Below are positions 39,362 to 58,366 of a stretch of 64,000 nucleotides of DNA, piece after piece. Position 1 is the first letter of the stretch; every line of letters begins with the position of its first letter. The stretch comes from Zasmidium citrigriseum. Its lineage: Eukaryota; Ascomycota; Dothideomycetes; Mycosphaerellales; Mycosphaerellaceae. Below the pieces are notes generated by a model. It ran no database searches. It was not told the DNA's origin and saw only the letters and a list, made by a program, of their open reading frames with translations. The stretch lies in the NCBI GenBank assembly GCA_002786025.1, contig NHNW01000039.1, positions 335,949-399,948 on the forward strand, read 5' to 3'. The position numbers and the translations under genes are program-made.

Positions 39362-40639
39362 TTACCATGCAAGAGAATCACCACCGTCAATGAGAGGAGT
39401 AGTTGCCGATGCGGTCATGGCTTCCAACTCTTTGCACAAGTCATCGGCGACTTTGCAGGCCTGGCTGCTTTCTCGCAAGCGAGATGCTGGGTAGACCTCC
39501 GTCCCCATCAAGCGTTCGAGCTTCGAGTGGGCTTTGATCTCGGCGAGCAGTGCTTCCTGGGACTGAGGGTCGGGGATGACACCTGTGTCTTTGACCTCGT
39601 CGAAGATGTCCTGCAATCTGTCCACGCTGGCGGCAACTTCTTGCTTGATGACAGAAATGGGCGTCTCGATCTTCCCATCAGCTCTGGCAGAATAGAGGTG
39701 ACACGCCAAGTCGCAGCTCTCCGGTCCCGTAGGCACAATCGAAATTGTCAACACAACATCCCCATTCGCGGACCTCAAATACCTCGTCAGCGGCGAAAGC
39801 TCAAACTCGGCCGGCCACTTGAAAGCCCCCAAACCGTTCGCCACACGACTCAACACACCCTTCCTGACCGCCAACGACGGCACCCGAAACGACCCATTCG
39901 GCATGGCAATCTTCCAATTAAACCCGCTCTCCACCGTCCAGCTCTCCACAAGACTGAGCTGGTTCCTCATTGGCACGCCCACGCGGATTGTTAGACCATC
40001 ACTCCCCAAGACGTCGAAATTTATGTAGACGAAGCCATTACTATCCGTCCAACACCGAATCTCAAACAACCCATTCTCATCTTTTCTAAACCCTTGCACT
40101 TCCTCAAACTTCGGCGCTTTTACCAGTCGTCCCGTGGAATCGTATGTCCAGCCGTGGTATTTGCATCGTAACAATGTACTCGTTCCAGAAGATTTGGTGC
40201 AGACAGTGTATGCGCGATGTCGACAGACATTGTGGAATGCTCGTAGTTTGTGGTCTTTTCCGAGAATTAGGAAGAAGGTGAAAGAGGCGATCTGGAAGGT
40301 GTGGTAGGTTCCTGGTGTGTTGGCGAAGAGCGAGGTGTGGCAGATGTGGAGCCAGGTTTTGGAGAGGATGGAGCGGGTTTCGAGGGAGTAGAGGTGCGGG
40401 GAGGTGTACCAGTGCGGTGGGAAGTCGAGTTCTTTGGTGACTGAGGGAGGTGGGGGAGGCGGAGATGTCGGTTTGGTGGGTTTGGATCGGGATTGTTTGA
40501 GGGTGAGGAGCTTTTTTGAGAGGCAGGCTAGGCAGGAGGGGAGGTAGATGGATAGGAGGGTGAATAGGAGGAGGCTTGTGGCGATTGTGAGGTAGGGGGA
40601 GGCTGTTTCCAGCGATGGGAGGGTGAGTTGGTGAGCCAT
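39362..40639 (-). CDS. Rieske-type iron-sulfur protein, mononuclear-iron motif lost
   Basis: 425 residues, single exon, from the ATG at 40639 (an in-frame ATG at 40738 adds 33 residues). Residues 15-40 form a membrane anchor, followed by a Lys/Pro-rich linker. The Rieske [2Fe-2S] ligands are intact: Cys139-x-His141 (CRHRAY) and Cys159-x2-His162 (CKYHGW). The C-terminal domain still aligns with ring-hydroxylating oxygenases, including FNWKIAMPN and the end HSKLERLMGTEVYPASRL. After NWK, however, the family's E/D-x2-H-x4-H iron motif is missing, and the frame is continuous with no room for a skipped exon. It should carry electrons but cannot bind the catalytic iron in the usual way. The upstream neighbour has the opposite defect. 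Confidence 0.82.
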   Translation of the reverse strand: MAHQLTLPSLETASPYLTIATSLLLFTLLSIYLPSCLACLSKKLLTLKQSRSKPTKPTSPPPPPPSVTKELDFPPHWYTSPHLYSLETRSILSKTWLHICHTSLFANTPGTYHTFQIASFTFFLILGKDHKLRAFHNVCRHRAYTVCTKSSGTSTLLRCKYHGWTYDSTGRLVKAPKFEEVQGFRKDENGLFEIRCWTDSNGFVYINFDVLGSDGLTIRVGVPMRNQLSLVESWTVESGFNWKIAMPNGSFRVPSLAVRKGVLSRVANGLGAFKWPAEFELSPLTRYLRSANGDVVLTISIVPTGPESCDLACHLYSARADGKIETPISVIKQEVAASVDRLQDIFDEVKDTGVIPDPQSQEALLAEIKAHSKLERLMGTEVYPASRLRESSQACKVADDLCKELEAMTASATTPLIDGGDSLAW

Positions 40640-40901
40640 TGGGGAGGTGGTTGGATCAGCGTTGACTGATCGAAAGGAGAAGTGGTCAAGAGTGTAAGAC
40701 GACAACCACGAGCTTTGATTATGAGAACAGCAAATCATAAACTACTTGTACCTCATCCATCAACGTCATATCAAACCTATCAGGCCTAATGAGAGTCATG
40801 GTAAGCTACCCAAGCAGTACAACAACCAGGTCCACCATAAACTCCACTTGACAACCCAACCGAGCATTTACCACATATACGAGTGAGATAGCTACATCCT
40901 T

Positions 40902-41961
40902 CTACGTTGAGACCGCAATCCCTGCATCGCTGCATGTGAAGTTAGAATTACCTGAATAGGAGCTCCTATCCAGCTCATCATCGGAAGCCGCTCCGGCTGT
41001 GGTTGGTTGCTGTTCGAGCTGTTTCTGCTGCTGCTTCTTGTCTTCCTGGTGTTGGGAGAGGACCATTTCCAGGACGCGTTGTTGGTAATCTGTAGCTCAT
41101 CAGTCAAGGCAGAGAGGAGGTGTTGGTGATGAGGGACTTACACGCCACTCCTGTTTCCTTGACGGGATTCAAAACCCCCTCCGCATAAATCCCGCGTTCC
41201 AAATTCCCCTGCGCCTTCTCACAAAGCTCATAATCCTCCAACGCAACCTGCCTCACAAACCTATAATACTCCTCAAACCCCTCCCCACTCTCCAAATTAT
41301 AATAATCAAATTCCATCCTCGTCCGTCCCGGCTCCTCAGTCGGACAAACCCGAAACTGACTCATCCCACCCCCATAAACATTCAACGTACAAACCGGGAA
41401 GAAATACAAAAACAGCCCGTCGTCTGGTTTTTCCGGATCCGCGATGTGCCGACACCAGTTATGGTGGTTGACGACGGAGTAGGAGGTTGGGGGGTAGAGG
41501 ACGCTGAAGGCTTTGTGTGTGTAGGCGCAGTGTAGGCATTCTTGGTATCCGTCGACCATGGTTTTCCAGTTGAAGGAGCCGTGGTAGGAGATTGAGCGTC
41601 GGTGGGGGAGACGGTGGAAGTTTACTGTTGAGAGGAGGGTTTCGAGACCCGGGAAGAAGGTGTGGAAGGGGGGTGCGGAGGGGTGGATGGTGCTGAAGAG
41701 GAGGCCGGTTGGTGTTAGGTGGGTGCGCGGGTGGTTGCCTTCATGGTCGGTGACGGTGATGGAGGTGTCCTCTTCGGTATGGCGGGTTGCTGTGAGGGTT
41801 ACGCCGGCGTATTCGTAGATGACGGGCTCGTTTTCTTGGAATCTGGTGACGGGGCCCAGGAGGTACCAGGACATGAGGAAGACGGCTCGTTGTTCGAGGC
41901 TGTAGAGGGGCTTGCTGCAGTACCAGGAGGCTGGCAGTGTTCTTGGGAGGGAGTTGGCCAT
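40902..41961 (-). CDS. Rieske-oxygenase-like catalytic protein lacking the Rieske cluster
   Basis: Two exons (41142-41961, 40902-41089, 52-bp intron) give 335 residues. The start (PASWYCSKPLYSLEQRAVF) matches the entry of fungal Rieske oxygenases. Where the [2Fe-2S] domain belongs there is only a short linker, with no CxH or CxxH motif. The catalytic domain is intact: NWKTMVDGYQECLHCAYTHK supplies Glu141, His144 and His149, and an Asp-containing EDYELCEKAQ lies near the end, as in the family's third iron ligand. The spliced end (YYQQRVLEMVLSQHQ) also fits. It lies 263 bp upstream of, and on the same strand as, the Rieske-only gene. It probably needs an external electron donor. Confidence 0.8.
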
Positions 41962-48606: not shown

Positions 48607-51600
48607 ATGTCCTTCTGGTCGCGAGTGCTGATCGCATGCGCAGCACCTTGTGTGCTTGCGCAAGCCAGTGAGTCCTGGGCCTCCTCGTTGACTTTGTCAT
48701 TAGATACTGAGTTAGTGCTAGGCGCCGCGAACCTCACGCAGCATGTTCAGACTGTGCTGGTCTACGCCTCGTGCGGAACACCTTACCGAACAACGACTGC
48801 GGCAACGAGTACGGCATACAGCAGCATGACAAGTAAAGTACTTTTTTAATGGAGACCGGGTGCACTTCGCTGATAGAAGGCGCAGCTCGTCCTCCCACCT
48901 CGATCCCGCCTTCGGACTATGGCACAATTACAAGCTTTTGGAGCGGCAGCACGCAGAGCACAACTACTTTGTCTCCATCGGGCACCCTTCCCGGAAGTGT
49001 GATCATTCTTGTGCCTTATCCAACACGCACTAGCTACTGGAGTGGCAGCACGAGAAGCACGACAACTCTGGCCCCTTCGGGCACTCTCCCAGGAGGCCCG
49101 ATCGTATTAGAGCCTTATCCAACAAGCACTAGCTACTGGACGGGGGCCACGCGAAGCACGACGACTGTTGCGCCGTCAGGCACTCTCCCACCAGGGGTAA
49201 TAGTACTGGAACCTTATCCAACAAGCACTAGCTTTTGGACTGGAACCACGCGAAGTGCCTCTACGGTAGCTCCATCAGGGACTGCGCCCCCTTATGTAAT
49301 AATCTTCGAGCCAACAAACACCATTGATCCCGTGCTGTCTACGACTACCAGCTACTGGACCGGCGCCGTTGAGAGTACGACGACAATCTCAGCATCGGGG
49401 ACGAGACCAGGCTATATCGTTGTTCTCAGACCATACACTTCGAGCACGAGCTACTGGACTGGGGTCACCCGAGGGCTGACTACGGTGCCGGCCACTGGAA
49501 CAACACCTCCATACGTCGTGGTGTTGGAACCAACAAGCACTCCTCCGCCCGCTTATGCGACTTCTACAAGCTATTGGACAGGCACGACACGAAGCACATC
49601 GACAAGACAGCCTAGTGGAACCAACCCCGGCGAGGTCGTTATCTTGGAGCCCAGTACTCCTCCTCAGTATCTCACGACGACGATCACAGATGCTTCAGCG
49701 ACCGCTGTCCGGACGATCACCCTTGGAGAGCCTTCTGGCTCAGATCTCGGCACCGTGGGCGTCATCGTGCCAGCAACTACTCGTCGTCCGCCGTTCAGCT
49801 ACATCACGATCCCAATAACAGGTGGCACAGGTACAAACACTCGTACTGTGACTCTGACTGAAGCCTCGGGCTCTCTGCCGGGATATGTCGGAGTGATTGC
49901 ACCACCAACGACTTCGTTCACAGGCGAGGACTATGTGACGTATACCATGTCTTACACCGGCTCCGAGTCGCTCACTGCGCCCATAACCAGCACCGTCGCT
50001 GGGCCATCAGGGACCAATCCGGGAATCGTCGTCGTCCAAACGCCTGTTGGTCCCCGGTATGTCACAAGAACGTTTTATGGCGGAAGTGGTACTGCAACTT
50101 CCACGTCGACGCTGGCAACCCCATCCGGCTCTTCTCCAGGGACTATAGGGGTCTTCGTACCTGATGCCTCGCCGACTGCTTATACTTTCACATCACCGAC
50201 GAGCGCAACGTTCTCTCCTTCGACAAGCTCCACTGCGCCAACCGAGCAGGCATGCGAAGGCTGTGTCACTTCGACTATCTTTAGTGGCAGCATAACTAGG
50301 ACAACCACACTTGCTTTCCCATCTGGCTCGATTCCGGGAACCATAGGGGTCGTCTATCCTTCTCCAACTGCAAGCCAGGATATGCCCACGACGTCGGATG
50401 GGCCCAGTGCCTCGACTGATATTGGCTCCAGTAGCACAGACGCACCTAGCCCGCCAGGTCCTAGCGTCTCAGCGACTCTGCCTTCCATCAGCTCTCAAGC
50501 CCTCGCCAGCAGTACCACTTCGAGCGCTTCCCTCACCGGGGTCTCCATTTCAAGTTCTTCGGTGACTGATGGAAGTTCAACGATCCTGAGCAGCAGTGCC
50601 CATGTAAGCTCAGCATCATCGGTCGACATAACATCATCGGTCTCCTCAGATATTTCATCGAGCTCAGAGCCACCAGGGGCTACAACTCTCGGATCCAGCA
50701 GTGAGATAGGCTCCAGCCCTGTTGACAGCAGCACGTCGTCCACACCCGTGGTCTCCCCTCCTGGGGCTGGCACTACCAGCAGCACTCTCAGCACCGCAGG
50801 CAGCTCCACCGAGACCTCTGAACTCAGCTCGATCTTGAGCATTAGTCCGGAAACCTCAATCACTGCTCCCACTTCAACGCTCTTGAGTGTTTCTCTGCCC
50901 AGCAGTGCACTCACATCTGTACCTTCTGGGGTCTCCAGCGAAACCATCCCAGGCTACTCTTCGCCGACGTCACCTTCGGCGTCCACCAGCGACATTCCAT
51001 CTCCGTCATCTAGTGTCGCCACTACTTCCTCCGCCGATTCTCCTCCGATATATTCTTCACCATCTGCGGCCACTCTGTCATCATCTGCCGCGTCGCCCTC
51101 TGCCACAGAATCGTCGTCATTCGAAACCTCGTCTTCGGCATCGAGTAGCGCCTCGTCCGCAATCAGCTCTGCCGCATCATCACCGAGCATTTCGACGCTT
51201 CAGACTTCGAGTGTCATCAGCGTTACGACCTCGCCGTTGCCTTCGCCCAGCCTGTCATTGACTGTTGAAAGCTCTTCAATATCGACCCAGTCTTCTGCGA
51301 CACCATCCTCATCAGCAGCTGTTACAACATTGAGCACTTTGGGTGTGTCAACGTCAAGCACGCTGAGCACGCTGACGTCGAGCATATCGAGCGTGTCAAC
51401 ATCGACCACATCGAGTATGTTGACCTCTACCGCGTCAAGCTTGACCGGAACCCTTGCTAGCGGCTCAGTTTCTACAATCTTGCCCTCGTCGTCAGCGCCC
51501 TCCAGCATCTTTTCGTCGATCACATTTCTGAGCACGACACCTACTTTGTCGCCCTCCGCGTCTGTCAGCTCTTCTTCTTCAACGGTACCAAGCTCTTCGT

Positions 51601-52868
51601 TGCCAAGCACAAACAGTGGAGTCACAACTTCATCTGCTTCTTCTTCTCCGAGCTCTACTGCAAGCACGAACACGGCGATAGCTAGCAGCTCTAGCAGTGG
51701 ACTTTCGACTTCGCCTACGCCTTCATCTGTCAGCTCCACGGTAATCGTCAGTACAGCCACGGCAAGCACAGCCATATCAAGCCCCTTATCAAGCTCAGCA
51801 TCGTCCACGATCATATCCAGCACTGGGACGACGAGTGCAGGCACCTCAAGCTCTGTTTCAAGCTCATTATCACTAAGCGCAACGATCAGCTCAAGTCCAT
51901 CCTCTTCTACGCTCACCAGCTCTTCTTCACCATCGACAGCGCCCAGTACGGTCCTGACCTCGACAAGTTCGGCATCATCGTCGATCTCGTCTTCACGTTC
52001 GTCATCGACTTCGTCCTCAACATCATCAACCTCAACGCGTATTTGCACAGCAGCCTCGTCGTACACTGTTAGGGCTACCAGCACCGCAGGCGTCTCTTCG
52101 CAACTCACCGTACCTCTATGTGCACAGACCGCCGTTTTCAGAGTGGCCGGAGCACAAGGTGGCCAGCAAGGCTGGGGAGGAGGCGCAGGTGGGATCCTCA
52201 CTGGCAGCTTGCCCGTACTTGCAGGACAAGTCATGTCCCTCATAGCTGGCGGGCAAGGCGGCACCAACGCCCGTGGACAAAGCGCATTCGGGAACGGCGG
52301 CTCAGCCGTCAACGGAGGCGGAGGGGGTGGTGGAGCGTCCGCCCTGTATCTCGCTAATGTCTTGATGTCTGTTGCTGGAGGGGGCGGTGGTGGCAGTATT
52401 CCCACAGGCGCCGGCGGTAATACTCTCAACTTCGCTTCCGATTCTGCCACAGGAAACGCCAACTCAGTTGGCCAAACGCGCTACATCACAACTCAAGACA
52501 GACAGGGTGTCTACGGCACTGCTTTTGGCGGCGAATCGTCTCCGACAGGACCAGGACAAGGCGGCCGTGCCGGAGGATATAGTTCCAACAATGCCATTTC
52601 CAATGGCACTGCTGCCAATGGTCGGAACGGCGGCAACGGTGTCCCCAACCTCTATGATCCGAATAATGGCAACTCTGGCTCAGGCGGGGGCGGCGGAGGG
52701 TATTATGGCGCCGGCTCAGGAGCATTCATTGCATGGCAGTATGGCGGAACGATGATCGTGGCCGGGGGAGGAGGCGGTGGAAGAAACTTCTTTGCTGATT
52801 CGGTGCTCAATCCTGTGACTGTGGGCAATAATACTGCACCGGGATTTGTAACTGTGGTCTTTAGCTGA
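48607..52868 (+). CDS. Large secreted repeat adhesin (flocculin/ALS-like) with Ser-rich stalk and Gly-rich C-terminus
   Basis: Two exons (48607-48832, 48886-52868, 53-bp intron) give 1402 residues. A signal peptide opens the protein (SFWSRVLIACAAPCVLAQ). About twelve degenerate units follow, each like TSYWTGxTRSTTTxxPSGT ending in a VIVLEP-type strand, resembling flocculin/ALS adhesin repeats. Next is a stalk of nearly pure Ser/Thr (about nt 50390-52060), expected to be O-glycosylated. The last 240 residues are Gly-rich (long GGGGGG runs) with a few aromatic strands, a fold seen in animal receptor Gly-rich regions. No GPI-anchor tail is visible. A cell-wall or cell-contact role is likely. A possible 36-bp intron at 48668-48703 keeps frame and cannot be excluded. 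Confidence 0.85.
48925..50370 (+). repeat. Tandem coding repeats of the adhesin
   Basis: About twelve units of roughly 32-42 codons. The first seven share TS(Y/F)W(T/S)G near their start and PSGT followed by a Val/Ile-rich strand and Glu-Pro at their end. Later units lose the Trp but keep the Thr-rich/PSG/strand pattern, so the array decays towards its 3' side. Confidence 0.8.
52130..52865 (+). repeat. Gly-rich C-terminal coding region of the adhesin
   Basis: Repeated GGxGG and poly-Gly codon runs separated by short hydrophobic strands (e.g. VMSLIAGGQGG, MIVAGGGGGG). It is a compositional rather than exact repeat. Confidence 0.7.
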
Positions 52869-57006: not shown

Positions 57007-58366
57007 ATGTCTTCTCAGTTCATTCTCTCGCTTATATGGGCTGCTGGTGCCGTAAGCGCTGCCAACACCCTTTGTCAAGGCGGACTCCCTGCATCCGCTG
57101 CATCGAAACTAGCTGGATTTCAGCCCGCGAGTGCATTTTGCTCATCCAAGTATCCACTGCCGCTGGCCACATCCACGTCGACAGCGCGAACCACAACCCT
57201 TACCTCGACTGCTCCAGCAGTCACTATCACCACTGTACGAAGATGCTCGTCGATCGCTCAGGACACCAAAAGCTAATTAGGAGGTACAGACGGTGGCCAC
57301 GGTCGCGATCACTTCATTCTACAGCACTTGTTAGTATTCTGGGGAATCTTCGTGCGATCATTGCTAACCGCCTTCAGCCACGTCTACGGAAGTTGATACG
57401 GGTATATGACACAAAAGAACCCTTCCATCAAATGCGAATGCTAACACTGTACTGTGCAGTCACGGAGACGACGACCGTTCAGGTTCCATATCAGTACCAA
57501 AAGCGCGACCTCGAAAATGAGCTCGAGAAGCGCAAGACTACTTTGCAGAAACAAGTGAGGACAACTATACCGAGATCACCTGCCAACACGGCCGCCCCTG
57601 CCTTCGCCAGTATGCTCCTGCAGGCGAACAAATTCATTGCCTCTGCATGCACGTGTTTGGAGACCCAAGTCACAACAACTGTCACCGTTACACCATCCAC
57701 GACGACGACTGTGACGCCTCAGTCGACTCAGCTGGCAACTGGTAAGAGTCCTGCAGGTAGATCCGTCCATGCCCTTATTGACATTGTTCAGAAACCGATA
57801 CCATCTCTTCCATTGCCCAAGCCACCGAAACAACCACGACCACCACTACCGAGACATCAACCACAACAACTCTATCCGCGTGCGGCAATCCTACTCCAAC
57901 CTTCTACCTGAAAGGCTCTTCGGGCGTAGTCGCTGGAAAATACGCCTACCAAGACGGCGGCCACGGCTACGTCCACGACTTCACCAGCAGCCCGCAGAAC
58001 CAATACTACATCGACGGGTCCGGAAACCTCCACACAACCGACTACAATTCCTACGCATTCGTAGGGGACACGACCGTTGGCGACAAGACCGGCACGGTCT
58101 ACTTCGAAGGCGGTTTCTCGGGCGCTACACCAGCTACTTACCGGGCCTACCCGGTCAAATGCTCGCTCGATAGCAGCAGTGGGGTCGTGCAGGGCGTGCC
58201 GAAGTATTTCAATTGCGCGGTCAACGGCGATGGACCCATTCAATTCTATTGGTGTGGGAATGATCATGATAGCCATTATAATGGATTGAGCATGGCAAAC
58301 TCCAATCCACCAGCGGATTATTGCAGTGCGGTGACGCTTCAGGCGATACCGGTTTGTTCGATTTGA
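57007..58366 (+). CDS. Secreted Thr-rich Cys-containing protein
   Basis: Five exons (57007-57234, 57281-57329, 57378-57401, 57460-57741, 57792-58366) give 385 residues. A signal peptide opens it (SSQFILSLIWAAGAVSAA). A Cys-containing block (NTLCQGGLPASAASKLAGF) precedes a Thr/Ser-rich spacer, a dibasic KR site, a second Cys block (SACTCLETQ) and a long Thr run. The C-terminal domain, after SACGNPTPTFYLKG, is about 160 residues of beta-rich, aromatic, Gly-rich sequence with five further Cys. The layout resembles fungal cell-wall proteins with a Thr-rich linker, but I do not recognise the C-terminal domain. Confidence 0.72.

Follow-up and report, generated by a model that had tools for sequence, protein, structure and literature searches.

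We analyzed two adjacent genes, here called A and B, in a 64,000-nucleotide stretch of DNA from the filamentous fungus Zasmidium citrigriseum (the window; all positions refer to this whole stretch). The source genome assembly comprises 44.4 Mb across 148 contigs. An earlier note on this DNA had described the two genes as related to Rieske oxygenases, with complementary losses. Neither product combines the Rieske CxH...CxxH motif and the iron triad in one polypeptide, while the pair together holds both (Table 1). Searches with the closest homologues found one strong place for each gene in the genome, that is, a single copy of A and a single copy of B. The closest named relative among the matches listed is Zasmidium cellare (Mycosphaerellaceae), with 80% identity for A and 76% for B.

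Gene A kept the iron site. Its product contains E141, H144, H149 and D243, the CxH...CxxH motif is absent, and its sole Pfam match is PF00848 (71.7 bits). The earlier note was right to the residue on the retained E141, H144 and H149, on the missing Rieske motif and on the gene's coordinates. It had, however, placed Glu141 in the catalytic iron motif; homology to the oxygenase CntA makes this residue the bridging glutamate and no iron ligand, and the iron triad consists of H144, H149 and D243. A catalytic domain with both the bridging acid and the 2-His-1-carboxylate site is found in A only. In an alignment with C61, a full-length oxygenase from this genome, residues 91-95 and 111-149 are missing from the A proteins sampled. 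These stretches contain C95, C115 and H118 (C61 numbering), three of the four cluster ligands. The flanking strands of the Rieske domain and most of the catalytic domain are retained, and the C-terminal tail (C61 residues 402-415) is also missing. Judged from this alignment, A is an oxygenase that has had its cluster-binding part excised.

Gene B runs in the same direction as A and shows the converse loss. The spacer between them has stops in all three frames, so A and B are separate genes in this genome. As the earlier note had stated, with the correct coordinates, B keeps C139, H141, C159 and H162, and the iron motif is gone after NWK: beyond NWK (241-243) the sequence reads IAMPNGSFRVP, which lacks E..H....H, and B has lost the bridging Glu together with both iron His and the third-ligand motif. 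Pfam matched the 458-amino-acid open reading frame (ORF) holding B to PF00355 with 57.4 bits and to PF00848 with 17.1 bits, under the cut-off of 24.9, and found no flavin, nicotinamide adenine dinucleotide (NAD) or Fer2 domain in B. Compared with C61, B kept the C-terminal tail and is missing 225-227, the site of the second iron His, a gap that is wider in the B of the window; other short gaps lie at 180-184, 247-259 and 341-347. By its alignment, B is not a bare Rieske domain but an oxygenase of almost full length whose catalytic domain is dead.

Table 1. Positions of the A and B genes and their features in the window.
Feature	Position	Strand	Description or basis
Gene A	41961-40902	minus	335 amino acids, one intron
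Gene A, exon 1	41142..41961	minus	remnant of the Rieske domain without its cluster-binding part; bulk of the catalytic domain
Gene A, E141 (bridging, CntA E205 position) and H144, H149 (iron ligands)	41515..41541	minus	residue check, alignment
Gene A, D243, third iron ligand	41233..41235	minus	its motif in 119/119 A-only proteins listed
Gene A, intron	41090..41141	minus	52 nucleotides, GT...AG
Gene A, exon 2	40902..41089	minus	end of the catalytic domain (YYQQRVLEMV), low-complexity tail, no C-terminal Trp
A-B spacer	40640..40901	minus	262 nucleotides, stops in all three frames
Gene B, Rieske-bearing, catalytically degenerate partner	39362..40639	minus	425 amino acids
Gene B, predicted N-terminal transmembrane anchor, residues 22-40	40520..40576	minus	hydropathy
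Gene B, Rieske [2Fe-2S] ligands C139, H141, C159, H162	40154..40225	minus	residue check, Pfam
Gene B, NWK then degenerate stretch, bridging Glu and two iron His lost	39878..39919	minus	alignment, residue check
Gene B, C-terminal Leu-Ala-Trp, like the cytosolic Fe-S targeting tripeptide	39365..39373	minus	sequence likeness

To assess how far these losses extend beyond one genome, we examined the best 120 matches of each gene among the 312 (A) and 424 (B) proteins retrieved by homologue searches (E<=0.001). Thirteen long records were set aside, namely 11 fused A-B models and two A. niger B records joined to a PF04117 domain, which left 119 A-only and 108 B-only proteins. The Rieske motif occurs in none of the 119 A-only proteins and the third-ligand motif in all of them. 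Their iron motif was found in 119/119 by a loose pattern and in 117/119 by a pattern tied to NWK; in the two misses (P0044 and P0089) the stretch is interrupted. Conversely, no B-only protein carries the iron motif (0/108) or the third-ligand motif (0/108, with a pattern that is not fully sensitive and detects 83 of 120 full-length proteins), and 99 of the 108 carry the Rieske motif. The nine that miss it comprise seven fragments of 257-274 amino acids and two sequences garbled at the motif (P0173 and P0180). As a control, 116 of 120 listed full-length fungal oxygenases hold both motifs. The complementary losses are fixed in the two families and are no accident of one genome. Because they are fixed in both, neither chance nor assembly error nor mis-called exons can explain them in general. 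The earlier note had already set exon mis-calling aside, and this holds up: the deletion in A falls within a single exon, and the losses recur across both families. It had also asked whether homologues would regain the missing motifs, and none of the listed A-only or B-only proteins does so. Decaying pseudogenes, assembly error or mis-called exons thus have a negligible probability: nothing favors such an origin for the pair as such, some database models are garbled (the four named above), and both genes are kept over several fungal classes with the same losses.

The two genes also stay together. We found 23 A/B pairs on shared contigs, taking contigs of identical length as the same (the values are unique within each list); 14 of these pairs come from named species, and two sit on contigs of just 4,705 and 5,555 bp. 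In four named pairs (Oleoguttula, Friedmanniomyces simplex, Rasamsonia and A. niger) the locus tags are consecutive. The pairs span Dothideomycetes (Zasmidium), one Leotiomycete (Xylogone, on the same contig only), and Aspergillus and Penicillium, which we take to be Eurotiomycetes. At least 20 named species, counted by eye, appear in both the A and the B match lists, which answers, for these species, the concern of the earlier note that the genes might not co-occur across related species. In addition, the 11 fused gene models (587-743 amino acids) place A before B, as in this genome. We considered whether they are true fusions and judged bridging by the gene caller more likely. In three of them (P0206, P0218 and P0231) the stretch carrying the iron motif of A is skipped, and P0229 holds an apparently complete B N-terminus from its Met, anchor included. 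A joint electron path predicts a conserved adjoining pair with the same two losses, and this is what we found; the mixed complex that the earlier note had proposed from such a path is, in this respect, supported by the 23 shared-contig pairs, the 11 fused models and the complementary losses. Pairwise distances within A and within B correlate (r 0.66, with 0 of 2000 shuffles as high) across 22 of the 23 pairs, the pair P0008/P0173 being dropped from distance comparisons because P0173 is garbled. We do not count this correlation as evidence of interaction, because shared species history alone suffices to produce it.

Two terminal features separate the families further. The membrane anchor that the earlier note had seen on the Rieske-only protein proved specific to B: with a hydropathy threshold of 1.6 over 19 residues, an N-terminal anchor was called in 89 of 95 B-only proteins longer than 380 amino acids, in 0 of 119 A-only proteins and in 3 of 120 full-length oxygenases among the matches listed. 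At the other end, 101 of the 108 listed B-only proteins finish in [LIMV]-x-Trp, a C-terminal Trp is present in 103 of 120 listed full-length fungal oxygenases, and no A-only protein (0/119) has such a tail. According to passages of PMC10623007, a C-terminal [LIM]-[DES]-[WF] recruits the cytosolic iron-sulfur (Fe-S) targeting complex and is necessary and sufficient for cluster delivery, and choline monooxygenase and Neverland are among the carriers of this tail. In the Z. citrigriseum genome, the tails are LAW, LAW and LSW in the three full-length oxygenases and LDW in a nitrite-reductase-like Rieske protein (C61, C59, C126 and C1); no terminal Trp is present in the frames with the mitochondrial-type and AIF-like Rieske proteins. 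These names are our reading of the frames, and the count leaves out one Rieske frame (L006). If the enzyme is split between A and B, the tail should be retained where the cluster is retained, and this is the pattern seen. The pair is thereby a natural test of the Fe-S-targeting tail, which is kept with the cluster in B and gone from A.

CntA offers a structural frame for the pair. CntA chains are the best solved-structure matches both of the window's B and of an A homologue (P0001); residue numbers in the matched PDB chain are offset by 20. According to PMC7948474, cluster and iron lie 44 Å apart within a CntA subunit and 12.2 Å apart across subunits, and E205, at the subunit interface, is required for electron transfer. 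Its equivalent in A, E141, is invariant in 24 aligned A proteins. At the position of CntA Y203, A has Y139, and Tyr or Phe occurs across the A alignment. PMC7948474 assigns an aromatic residue at this position, binding the ammonium group, to group Va, and an Asn to group Vb, which includes GbcA. For two A and two B homologues, the best NCBIfam match was GbcA, far under the cut-off. By analogy, we offer a quaternary-ammonium compound as a tentative first guess for the substrate of A.

From the anatomy and conservation of the two families, from the closeness of the genes and from the tail that goes with the cluster, we consider it probable that A and B form a single Rieske non-heme iron oxygenase, each as an obligate subunit. 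In such an enzyme, B would be held in the membrane by its N-terminus with the Rieske domain on the cytosolic side, and its C-terminal Trp tripeptide would bring the cytosolic Fe-S assembly machinery, so that the [2Fe-2S] cluster is loaded. A reductase would then give electrons to B. A would dock on the Rieske domain of B, replacing the neighboring subunit of the usual homotrimer, and would receive electrons via E141 to activate O2 on the substrate, perhaps a quaternary ammonium compound. We also lean, with somewhat less assurance, towards an obligate heteromer as the ancestral state of several filamentous ascomycete classes. In it, the usual electron transfer between subunits would have turned into a strict division of labor, in which B would be membrane-anchored and Fe-S-targeted and the soluble A would be freed from the need for Fe-S assembly.

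For the reductase step, the candidates are three long ORFs that carry a MOSC domain at the N-terminus and a Fer2 domain at the C-terminus (L095, L096 and L097, on C62, C116 and C54), which are three of the eight Fer2 places examined in the genome. One of the three has a recognizable NAD-binding domain. They are possible reductases for the genome's Rieske oxygenases in general, and nothing ties them to the A/B pair.

Several observations weigh against an obligate pair. Since the match lists end at the best 120 of 312 (A) and 424 (B), some species may have A without B; many other species with A have no B among the matches listed, and they include Annulohypoxylon and Pseudomassariella, presumably Sordariomycetes. 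B evolves faster than A, with a median pairwise identity of 36% against 65% (22 of 23 pairs), and an interface-constrained partner need not evolve faster. No reductase was recognized by Pfam among the seven neighboring ORFs. CntA is a head-to-tail alpha-3 ring, and since an odd ring cannot strictly alternate A and B, another stoichiometry would be needed. The window's B tail, LAW, falls outside the strict published [LIM]-[DES]-[WF] consensus, which 49 of the 120 listed B records match. On this last point a 2026 preprint is divided: its test gave only a modest binding change for a penultimate Ala, and its introduction reads otherwise, stating that Ala does affect Leu1 (PMC13082141). Lastly, a 2024 study reports that cytosolic [2Fe-2S] proteins mature mainly without the targeting system, and grants that Rieske proteins with a terminal Trp may be different (PMC11126956).

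A and B might also not be partners at all: A could be fed by a full-length oxygenase or another carrier, with B as an independent membrane Rieske carrier that adjoins it by chance. The genome does encode three full-length Rieske oxygenases, which could in principle serve A with their clusters (a further point against the obligate pair), and B looks like a membrane-bound carrier. Chance adjacency sits poorly, however, with the neighboring positions (four consecutive-tag pairs, two contigs under 6 kb and 11 fused models in the same order) and with the 23 shared-contig pairs, one of them in a Leotiomycete, and with the presence of A as well as B in at least 20 named species. We regard this alternative as unlikely. 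We give still less credence to a single re-arranged enzyme in which A and B are one fused protein in some or all species. The 11 models with A followed by B in one chain are what such a fusion would look like, but in the window A ends at a stop of its own, B starts at its own ATG and the spacer holds stops in every frame, and the proteins are separate in the 119 (A) and 108 (B) examined records. The fused models themselves point the other way, P0229 with its apparently whole B N-terminus and three others that skip the A iron motif as if the caller had bridged two genes.

A could instead have become a Rieske-independent enzyme, such as a lyase, a hydrolase or an oxygenase with another reductant, with B as a scaffold carrying a structural cluster. 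Loss of the cluster in A fits a changed chemistry. Yet the bridging Glu, needed in CntA for Rieske electron transfer, is invariant in the 24 aligned A proteins, and the pattern of this Glu and both His persists in 119/119 A-only proteins listed, which leaves this explanation very improbable. Two subunits of one oxygenase remain the reading we favor.

To examine the origin of the two genes, we built trees from 19 A, 19 B and 19 full-length fungal sequences (18/119, 18/108 and 16/120 of the listed proteins, to which the A and B of the window and the three full-length oxygenases of the genome were added). The A, B and full-length groups each fall on one side of a branch, with support of 100, 100 and 95, and of 100, 100 and 96 when 22 prokaryote sequences are added. 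The simplest reading of these trees is that each loss was one event before the sampled fungal classes diverged. In the free tree, B groups with the fungal full-length oxygenases (support 99). Long branches were flagged in these trees. Approximately unbiased (AU) tests did not reject a grouping of A with B (p-AU 0.487) or of A with the full-length oxygenases (p-AU 0.442; 0.664 for the catalytic domain alone), and a grouping of all three (p-AU 0.663) gave a better tree than the free one. We tried a single common origin of A and B, and the AU tests settle no placement of A. The earlier note had called the genes divergent paralogues; by the AU tests, which reject none of the tested groupings, they may descend from one duplicated gene or from two sources.

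Domain comparisons point in different directions for the two genes. The Rieske domain of B (three sequences tested) is closest to fungal full-length oxygenases, at best 44-45%; that of the window's B is 42% identical to two of the genome's own oxygenases and up to 45% to others. The catalytic domain of A (three sequences) is closest to prokaryotic sequences, at best 33-35%, an Obscuribacterales protein among them, and the best listed fungal full-length oxygenase reaches 30%. A scan of prokaryotes with the A alignment matched 51 stretches, none of which encodes a relative. In a second scan, for which full-length oxygenases served as the query, the best 80 of 594 loci included 66 with a Rieske ORF, 65 of which also have the iron motif; these ORFs were called by our own pattern, and the other 14 of the 80 loci lie outside the count. 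Under a stricter, frame-based extraction, 24 of 29 loci held both motifs. No split pair was seen in the prokaryote scan, and a full-length query would not favor one. One locus (L015), a full-length Rieske oxygenase in a Candidatus Obscuribacterales metagenome-assembled genome, carries the A-like signatures DGYQEC and NPRRENGVAYYQ, and the other 65 prokaryote loci with a Rieske ORF are unlike it in this respect. By these signatures, L015 is a possible relative of the catalytic domain of A.

Known systems resemble the pair only in part. The bacterial precedent named by the earlier note was correctly chosen: according to PMC4408171, NdmC is a catalytic subunit without a Rieske cluster that relies on the cluster in another protein. 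NdmCDE is the nearest precedent, since NdmC, like A, has a catalytic site and no cluster. In NdmCDE, however, the cluster is fused to the reductase NdmD, whereas B, a homologous but catalytically dead oxygenase, has a membrane anchor and, by Pfam, no reductase domain. NdmCDE also needs NdmE, which resembles a glutathione S-transferase (GST), and Pfam found no GST family among the seven ORFs neighboring A and B (two of them matchless). CntA and group V share with A the bridging Glu and the aromatic residue at position 203, but CntA is a homotrimer with both centers in each subunit, whereas A and B have one center each. GbcA, in group Vb, has Asn at position 203 where A has Tyr. The full-length fungal Rieske oxygenases, which are choline-monooxygenase-like, usually end in Trp, as B does; unlike A and B, 116/120 of those listed keep both motifs and 117/120 are without an N-terminal anchor. 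Neverland, which is membrane-bound, and plant choline monooxygenase are single-chain enzymes. Like B, both are eukaryotic Rieske proteins with a conserved C-terminal Trp (PMC10623007 and PMC11126956).

We recognized no description of the A/B pair among the papers listed by searches of one open-access library, and subscription papers lay mostly outside this search. Database names of the listed A and B matches are generic or transferred, for instance hypothetical protein, Bet v1-like or choline monooxygenase. Inter-subunit transfer in Rieske oxygenases is usually probed by mutation, since every subunit has both centers; a natural pair with one center each would let cluster and iron vary independently. 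It would also show a route from a homotrimer to a heteromer with divided functions. The A and B genes occur in many filamentous fungi, including Aspergillus and Penicillium.

By Pfam, the seven neighboring ORFs comprise a siroheme-synthase-like gene, a FYVE protein, a TAP-like hydrolase, an epimerase, a zinc dehydrogenase and two without matches, with no obvious pathway among them. In the two A. niger records set aside above (P0197 and P0222), B is joined in one model to the PF04117 domain, which we take to be Mpv17/PMP22, suggesting a neighboring gene there. Elsewhere in the window, positions 48849-52868 hold a repetitive Ser/Thr-rich ORF of 1339 amino acids with a glycine-rich C-terminal part, possibly a cell-surface protein. 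Between positions 58000 and 64000, at the end of the contig, the guanine-plus-cytosine content drops from ~0.53 to 0.35-0.39, as in fungal DNA that is rich in repeats or affected by repeat-induced point mutation.

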